From NCBI RefSeq assembly GCF_000092305.1, contig NC_014122.1:744001-808000 (forward strand): a DNA stretch of 64,000 nt, given 5' to 3'. The notes under the pieces were generated by a model. The model had not been told where the DNA came from. It ran no database searches and saw only the letters and a program-made list of their open reading frames with translations. Below, one piece after another: positions 32,965 to 52,722 of this stretch. Within the stretch, counting starts at the first letter, position 1; every line of letters begins with the position of its first letter. A program made the position numbers and the translations under genes. This DNA is from Methanocaldococcus infernus ME. Its GTDB lineage: Archaea > AGJL01 > Methanococci > Methanococcales > Methanocaldococcaceae.

Positions 32965-33036
32965 AAAGACTCTCAATGATGAAACCTTTAAGCTGAGTGG
33001 TGATGATCCCTTCGGGGTAACTGAGGGAGTCTTTTT
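32963..33036 (+). ncRNA. C/D-box guide sRNA
   Basis: Box C ATGATGA (32976-32982), box D' CTGA (32993-32996), box C' GTGATGA (33000-33006) and box D CTGA (33021-33024). A perfect ten-base terminal stem pairs 32963-32972 (AAAAAGACTC) with 33027-33036. The D' guide is 10 bases, AACCTTTAAG; eight bases next to D' are complementary to the conserved archaeal 16S rRNA sequence CUUAAAGG (about positions 910-917). The D guide is 14 bases, TCCCTTCGGGGTAA, target not identified. It lies between COG1325 and tgtA and begins in the stop codon of the former. A terminator reading of the stem and T-run is possible but does not explain the boxes. Confidence 0.8.
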
Positions 33037-50878: not shown

Positions 50879-51937
50879 ATGGTAAAGAAAATTGTAATAT
50901 TTTACATTTTTTTAATTTTAGGATTAAATGTAATTTATGCTGAATACTTAGAAGATATTCTAAAGGATAATGTAAAAATTAATGGAGATCTTGAGGGTAA
51001 TGTTTATGGAAAAGTTACAGGTTTTGGAGTTAATTTAGATATAAATACAAAGATACCGCAAGGATTTTTAAATGGTGAAATTAAAAATGGTAAAATTTCA
51101 TTAAATATCAAAGGAAACGTTTTGGGTAATATAGTTGGGGATTTTCCATTAATTGGATATAAAAATATAAACTTAAAAGATGCTAAATTTGTAGGGTCTA
51201 TTGACGGAACTATAAATAATGGAAATATAATTGGAACTTTTAATGGAGAAATTGTTGGGAAAGTAGGAAGCTTTGATTTTAATGAAGTTATCTCTGGAGA
51301 ATTTAATGGATATATAAGTGGTAACACTATTAAAGGAAGCTATAAAGGTAAAATTTCTGGAATAGTAAATGGAGACTGTTCAGGAAATGTAGAATTTAAG
51401 ATTGTTTCTTTAAATATAAACAAAGAAGAAATAGATACAAAAGAGAATGGTGACATTAAAGAGGCAAGTACAAAGGAAGCTAAAGACATTAAAAAAATAG
51501 ATACAAAGGATCTAAAAAAATATTTTATAAATAGAGCCGAAATTGTTGCTGGTAAAGGAATAGATTTAAAATTTGGATATGAGTTAAAAAAATATGATCT
51601 AACATTAATTTCAAAAAATATAGAAATAACAAAAGACACTATCCTAATCGGAGGGCCAGTGGCAAACCCATTAACCAAGAAGTTAATGGATAAGTTCCCG
51701 GTTAAAGTAACTAATGAATATCCAGGAAAGAATAAAGGAGTTATTGAAATGATTAAGTTGAATGTTAAGGTCTCCGATAACATTTACAAAGAAGTTAAAG
51801 TTCTACTCTTAGCTGGTTCAGACAGATGGGGAACTAAAGCCGCTGTAGAGTACTTTAAAACCTTAGATTACATTCCAGAAGAACCAATCTTCGTAGAATG
51901 GAAAGACGGAAAGGCTGTTAGAATAGAGAAGCCTTAA
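50879..51937 (+). CDS. Secreted S-layer-like protein with Gly-repeat beta-helix region
   Basis: 352 residues. Signal peptide (IVIFYIFLILGLNVIYA), then about 150 residues of short repeats with the pattern G-x-I-x-G (GDLEGNVYGKVTGFG, GNVLGNIVGDF, GTFNGEIVGKVG, GSYKGKISGIVNGD), suggesting a beta-helix or bactofilin-like stack. A Lys/Asp linker follows (DTKENGDIKEASTKE), and the last 100 residues match the C-terminal domain of methanococcal S-layer proteins (ILIGGPVANPLTKKLM, LLLAGSDRWGTKAAVEYF). The 3' third is visibly richer in G and C than the rest. Confidence 0.78.
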   Translation: MVKKIVIFYIFLILGLNVIYAEYLEDILKDNVKINGDLEGNVYGKVTGFGVNLDINTKIPQGFLNGEIKNGKISLNIKGNVLGNIVGDFPLIGYKNINLKDAKFVGSIDGTINNGNIIGTFNGEIVGKVGSFDFNEVISGEFNGYISGNTIKGSYKGKISGIVNGDCSGNVEFKIVSLNINKEEIDTKENGDIKEASTKEAKDIKKIDTKDLKKYFINRAEIVAGKGIDLKFGYELKKYDLTLISKNIEITKDTILIGGPVANPLTKKLMDKFPVKVTNEYPGKNKGVIEMIKLNVKVSDNIYKEVKVLLLAGSDRWGTKAAVEYFKTLDYIPEEPIFVEWKDGKAVRIEKP

Positions 51938-52049: not shown

Positions 52050-52112
52050 GGGGTAGATGATGACGTTTATCCCCGGCTGATTGATGATGAGTAGCAAGCC
52101 GGCTGATACCCC
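52050..52112 (+). ncRNA. C/D-box guide sRNA
   Basis: All boxes are canonical: C ATGATGA (52057-52063), D' CTGA (52077-52080), C' ATGATGA (52084-52090), D CTGA (52103-52106). The terminal stem GGGGTA (52050-52055) pairs perfectly with TACCCC (52107-52112). Guides are 13 (CGTTTATCCCCGG) and 12 bases (GTAGCAAGCCGG). Ten bases next to D' are complementary to CCGGGGAUAA of the 23S peptidyl-transferase loop (E. coli 2442-2451); the fifth-base rule points to G2446. It lies alone between the S-layer-like and rubrerythrin genes. Confidence 0.93.
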
Positions 52113-52140
52113 TCTTTTAATAAAAAATAAAAAAGTAAAA

Positions 52141-52722
52141 TTAGAATTTTTCACATCTTAGCTCAAAGTATTTTCTTGGATGTGAACAGGAAGGACACTC
52201 TTCTGGTGGCTCATTGGCTTTATGTACATAGCCACACTTCATACATACCCATTCAACTTCTTCATCTTTCTTATATATTTTTCCTTCTTCTAAGGCTTTT
52301 AAGATAGCTTCATATCTCTCCTTATGATGCTTTTCAGCTATTGCTATAGCTCTCAATCTATCAGCAATTTCTTTAAGACCTTCTTTTTCTGCTATCTCAG
52401 CAAATTCTGGATACATGCTTTCATATTCATAAGATTCTCCTTCAATAGCAGCTTTAAGGTTCTCTTTAGTATCTCCTAAAACTATTGGAACCTCAACCTC
52501 TATTTTTATAGGCTCATCTATATTATACTTCTTTTTTAGTTCAGTAGCTAAGTAGTAAAGCCATTTAGCATGCTCTCTTTCATTTTCAGCAGTTAGTAAG
52601 AATATCTCAGCTATCTTCTCATAACCTTCTTGCTTGGCAATCTTGGCAAAGCATGTATATCTATTTCTTGCCATACTTTCTCCAACATAGGCCTTAGCTA
52701 AGTTTATTAAAGTTTCTTTCAT
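52141..52722 (-). CDS. Rubrerythrin
   Basis: Peroxide-reducing di-iron protein. 193 residues: four-helix domain with Glu/His ligands (YVGESMARNRYTCFAKIA, LTAENEREHAKWLYYLA, AIAEKHHKERYEA) and a C-terminal rubredoxin domain with C-x2-C pairs (WVCMKCGYVH and CPSCSHPRKYF). Length and domain order are typical. It is the last gene of the oxygen-defence island; a GGTGAGAG site precedes its ATG, and it follows the small rubredoxin-like gene by 10 bases. Confidence 0.96.
   Translation of the reverse strand: MKETLINLAKAYVGESMARNRYTCFAKIAKQEGYEKIAEIFLLTAENEREHAKWLYYLATELKKKYNIDEPIKIEVEVPIVLGDTKENLKAAIEGESYEYESMYPEFAEIAEKEGLKEIADRLRAIAIAEKHHKERYEAILKALEEGKIYKKDEEVEWVCMKCGYVHKANEPPEECPSCSHPRKYFELRCEKF

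Follow-up and report, generated by a model that had tools for sequence, protein, structure and literature searches.

The window analyzed here, a stretch of 64,000 nucleotides from the single-contig, 1,328,194-base genome of Methanocaldococcus infernus ME, carries a genuine archaeal guide RNA gene at positions 52050-52112 of the + strand, a new but ordinary member of a well-known kind. Its product is very probably a canonical double-guide C/D box sRNA of the archaeal type, directing the predicted methylation of two 23S rRNA positions, equivalent to E. coli G2446 and 2491. The result provides a concrete, testable pair of candidate methylation sites by the peptidyl-transferase center of a hyperthermophilic methanogen. 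The gene was recognized from its boxes, spacing and terminal stem, which were read directly, and from its conservation throughout the genus and the covariation of its stem.

Organization of the sRNA gene

The full RNA reads GGGGUA-G-AUGAUGA-CGUUUAUCCCCGG-CUGA-UUG-AUGAUGA-GUAGCAAGCCGG-CUGA-UACCCC, with all its elements on the + strand. The 5' strand of the terminal stem (GGGGUA, 52050-52055) pairs with its 3' strand (UACCCC, 52107-52112), and A52049-U52113 adds a seventh pair on top of these six. The C box (AUGAUGA, 52057-52063) is invariant in 23 of 23 aligned homologues, and so are the D' box (CUGA, 52077-52080) and the D box (CUGA, 52103-52106). The C' box (AUGAUGA, 52084-52090) is RUGAUGA in the Methanocaldococcus homologues and more variable outside the genus. 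Upstream of the D' and D boxes lie the D' guide CGUUUAUCCCCGG (13 nt, 52064-52076) and the D guide GUAGCAAGCCGG (12 nt, 52091-52102). A T-rich tract just 3' of the stem (52113-52118) is a putative termination signal, and runs of 3-6 T follow the terminal stem in the Methanocaldococcus homologues. The initial annotation had described four boxes, a perfect six-base terminal stem and guides of 12-13 bases at this place, and that description was confirmed to the base.

The RNA thus has the RUGAUGA and CUGA boxes near its ends, the short closing stem and the internal C' and D' boxes of archaeal C/D RNAs, and guides of about 12 nt whose rRNA complementarity covers position 5, the N+5 position (10 bp for D' and 11 bp for D). 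The gene is intergenic, located between an upstream ORF at 50879-51937 (+), which encodes 352 aa with a match to an S-layer outer domain, and a downstream rubrerythrin gene at 52141-52722 (-). C, D' and C' boxes with guide spacing occurred twice in the 64-kb window against 0.00 expected, and none of 100 shuffles gave any. Genome-wide, the box pattern had 10 matches in 9 distinct places, versus 0 for the reversed pattern.

Target of the D' guide

The D' guide forms 10 bp with CCGGGGAUAA, which occurs once in the 23S rRNA of the host, at positions 2537-2546 of its own numbering. The N+5 base is G2541, corresponding to E. coli G2446 in a pairwise alignment with an E. coli 23S gene. The E. coli gene used has 2906 bases versus the standard 2904, and two leading bases were subtracted from the positions; this offset was checked against A2451, the catalytic base, and against D2449, whose positions are established in the literature. 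The initial annotation had proposed G2446 as the target from a near-universal 23S sequence, and its proposal of a 10-bp pairing is supported by the presence of CCGGGGAUAA in the host's own 23S rRNA in the N+5 register. The D' spacer, at 13 nt, has one U more than in Methanococcaceae, and its last three bases are unpaired. Since the D' guide is C-rich, a 10-bp rRNA match is by itself only moderately improbable: 3.0% of composition-shuffled D' guides reached 10 bp covering position 5.

None of the papers searched names G2446 as an archaeal target, although the M. maripaludis sRNAs of PMC4644070 may already include such a guide.

Target of the D guide

Complements of both guides were sought in the host rRNA and both were found in 23S rRNA, including a D target that was missing from the initial annotation. 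The D guide forms 11 contiguous bp with CGGCUUGCUAC, at positions 2583-2593. Base 1 of the duplex, beside the D box, is unpaired (G-G), so the site does not match CCGGCUUGC, which is complementary to the whole D guide. Counting from box D, the N+5 base is C2586, equivalent to E. coli 2491 and located 45 nt downstream of the G2446 site. Only 0.27% of the composition-shuffled D guides reached 11 bp covering position 5. Both target sites are present in both rRNA operons of the host. In the predicted fold of a 61-nt segment, most of the D target lies in the 3' strand of a stem that matches helix 89.

Conservation and covariation

Of the 13 other Methanocaldococcus genomes, 12 contain the whole RNA with both guides, at 86-90% identity; the one lacking a match is represented by an assembly that is 85% complete. 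All the Methanocaldococcus copies have the same D guide (GUAGCAAGCCG) and the same D' guide (CGUUUAUCCCCG), with only the box-adjacent base of each varying. Five of the six terminal stem pairs change on both sides among 23 homologues (17 cells versus 6.8 in shuffles; 0/500). Flanking genes, compared over ~1.5 kb per side where the contig allowed, include none common to any homologous locus, indicating that selection acts on the RNA itself.

The core of the D' guide is kept across Methanococcales. In Methanococcaceae it is present as UGUUAUCCCCGG and similar sequences of 12 nt, one U shorter. The D-side spacer of these homologues is A/T-rich and variable in length and has no convincing rRNA match, although the 23S target is identical; compared with the rRNA of M. 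infernus, the Methanococcaceae D guides gave no fit beyond 7-8 pairs. One relative within the order (G024) showed 8 pairs with the helix 89 loop, which is too weak to claim. Among the 36 genomes that make up the phylum set, 25 contain the strict G2446-guide pattern and none has a hit for the reversed-pattern control. The species genomes collection, scanned for exact matches, also yielded it in a Nanoarchaeota MAG and in an archaeal MAG that is unclassified, and in these two the C, D', C' and D boxes are all present. Matches of the scan in Bacillus and Victivallales lacked the C' and D set and were taken as chance, and two matches in another genome (G040) were rejected for lacking boxes.

Covariation between guide and target was sought and none was visible, the target being identical in all the Methanococcales examined. 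The A-to-G change found in some guides (UUGUCCCC; G014 and G024) produces a G-U pair with the unchanged U2449.

This distribution, with the D guide missing outside Methanocaldococcus, argues that methylation of G2446 would be the conserved core function, and that the helix 89 contact would be a lineage-specific addition or retention. An order-wide guide combined with a second guide in one genus, over an unchanged target, represents a clean case of guide turnover. The same distribution could be explained if only the D' guide were a working methylation guide and the D guide contacted helix 89 either non-productively or purely as a chaperone, given that Methanococcaceae homologues are devoid of the D guide despite the identical 23S target, and that the target is within a strong helix where access could be blocked after folding. 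We regard this as unlikely, because all Methanocaldococcus copies agree in the D guide apart from the base beside box D, whereas the spacer between D' and C' varies, and because it has an 11-bp match in the correct register.

In homologues from outside the genus (L027/L069, L028-L030 and L049/L075) the D'-C' spacer is 11-20 nt long, versus 3 nt in Methanocaldococcus, and in some of them the expanded spacer could form a small hairpin (UUGGGGCUUCCCUUAA). In the Nanoarchaeota MAG (L077, 1731-1860), a near-copy with a shortened front and no C box (UUAUGAUAUCCCCGACUGA...) directly follows the G2446 guide RNA, representing a partial tandem duplication.

Relationship to known C/D RNAs

No family was matched by an Rfam scan at the gathering score. 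Below threshold, the best scores for the whole RNA were all with C/D families, namely sR1 (40.8 bits), snoPyro_CD (38.1), sR11 (29.0), sR5 (28.7) and snoR38 (28.3). The archaeal sR1 (RF01152) and snoPyro_CD (RF00095) share with it the size, the RUGAUGA and CUGA boxes, guides of 12-13 nt upstream of D' and D, and a short terminal stem; however, their guides differ, and 40.8 and 38.1 bits are below their gathering scores of 45.

In eukaryotes, Gm2815 of yeast is guided by snR38, Gm4362 of human (in the numbering of PMC8817022) by SNORD38, and the equivalent plant position by AtsnoR38. In the cross-species table of a 2024 review (PMC11542601), the site equivalent to G2446 is given for plants, human, yeast and an alga, while the Pyrococcus abyssi column is empty, 2446 being absent as a methylated site for this archaeon. 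The snR38/SNORD38/plant snoR38 family (RF00213) has in common with the M. infernus RNA a UUAUCCC core, a few other bases and CUGA at the D' box, and the match aligned UUAUCCC of the D' guide together with the following CUGA. It is a weak match, with 28.3 bits against a gathering score of 45, and the eukaryotic RNAs are longer and carry another guide that is not shared. Yeast 2815 is presumably E. coli 2446, on the basis of the common GGGAUAAC register and of the yeast numbering. Judged from their position relative to this GGGAUAAC in the target, the guides of the archaeal and the eukaryotic RNAs are predicted to address the same base, so that E. coli G2446 would be reached identically by C/D RNAs of both domains.

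It is conceivable, but improbable, that the G2446 guide and its placement at D' are ancestral and related by descent to snR38/SNORD38, with the helix 89 guide added or kept in Methanocaldococcus. If true, this would be one of the few guides to have persisted across the archaea-eukaryote split. Two observations bear on descent versus convergence: the G2446 guide targets a near-universal sequence, and no Asgard example turned up when the species genomes collection was scanned for exact matches to the strict pattern.

Proposed function and alternative explanations

The host genome encodes the partner proteins of a C/D particle, with genes for fibrillarin (310.6 bits), a Nop-domain protein (236.7 bits) and two members of the L7Ae family. 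Once transcribed, the RNA would form C/D and C'/D' kink-turns that bind L7Ae, leading to the recruitment of Nop5-fibrillarin. The D' guide, annealed to CCGGGGAUAA, would then lead to a ribose methyl group on own G2541 (E. coli G2446), and the D guide, annealed to CGGCUUGCUAC, to one on own C2586 (E. coli 2491). One target lies immediately 5' of helix 89 and the other on the 3' strand of that helix, only 45 nt apart, so one particle could bind both; given these positions, a particle using both guides would have to act before helix 89 closes, which agrees with the chaperone proposal of Dennis et al. 2015 (PMC4644070). With both sites occupied, helix 89 might fold later or in a set order next to the peptidyl-transferase center.

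Such an effect could be taken further, with the RNA serving chiefly to hold the two flanks of helix 89 as a chaperone of rRNA folding, and the methyl groups being secondary. The two targets, 45 nt apart and flanking or within helix 89, would suit this role, and Dennis et al. proposed chaperone action for double-guide archaeal sRNAs. As in the double-guide sRNAs considered in that study, among them sR15 and sR17 of N. equitans, the sites targeted by the two guides flank or fall within one helix region; the present sRNA differs in that its targets are 45 nt apart at 23S helix 89, and M. infernus is outside the species covered there. We consider a chaperone-first role quite unlikely, since both duplexes carry the methylation register, and since Methanococcaceae kept the G2446 guide alone, without a second guide fitting rRNA well, indicating that bridging is dispensable there.

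It is hardly credible that the element is an L7Ae-bound regulatory kink-turn in the UTR of a neighboring mRNA, of the kind through which L7Ae is proposed to regulate translation in archaea (PMC5539422), since its neighboring genes are common to no homologous locus, two full guides fit rRNA, and C, D', C' and D are complete. Equally far-fetched is a chance or degenerate C/D-like sequence without a product, which is opposed by the shuffle controls, the conservation and the stem covariation. The double-guide methylation sRNA is therefore the reading retained here.

Other C/D box sRNAs of the host genome

The other sRNAs of the host genome were located by the box pattern alone. The second one in the window, at 32965-33036 (+), is flanked by ORFs of 149 aa and 646 aa, the latter resembling by eye an archaeosine tRNA-guanine transglycosylase. 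Its boxes extend from 32976 to 33024, and both a T run and a terminal stem (GACUCUC/GGGAGUC) are present. The D guide of this sRNA may pair near positions 2533-2542 of the host 23S rRNA (8 Watson-Crick and 2 G-U pairs), adjoining the G2446 site, and the sRNA is poorly conserved in the genus.

The D' guide of another sRNA (C1:825831-825863) forms 10 bp with 23S positions 2592-2601, with N+5 at own 2595, equivalent to E. coli U2500, and adjoins the 2491 site. The C/D sRNAs of this host seem to target helix 89 and the peptidyl-transferase ring densely. A further C/D sRNA (C1:918182-918216) contains the guides GGAUUGGCUUUA, with 10 bp to 23S rRNA, and UCCGUAUGAGCU, and appears to resemble the sR8 of M. 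jannaschii used in structural work.
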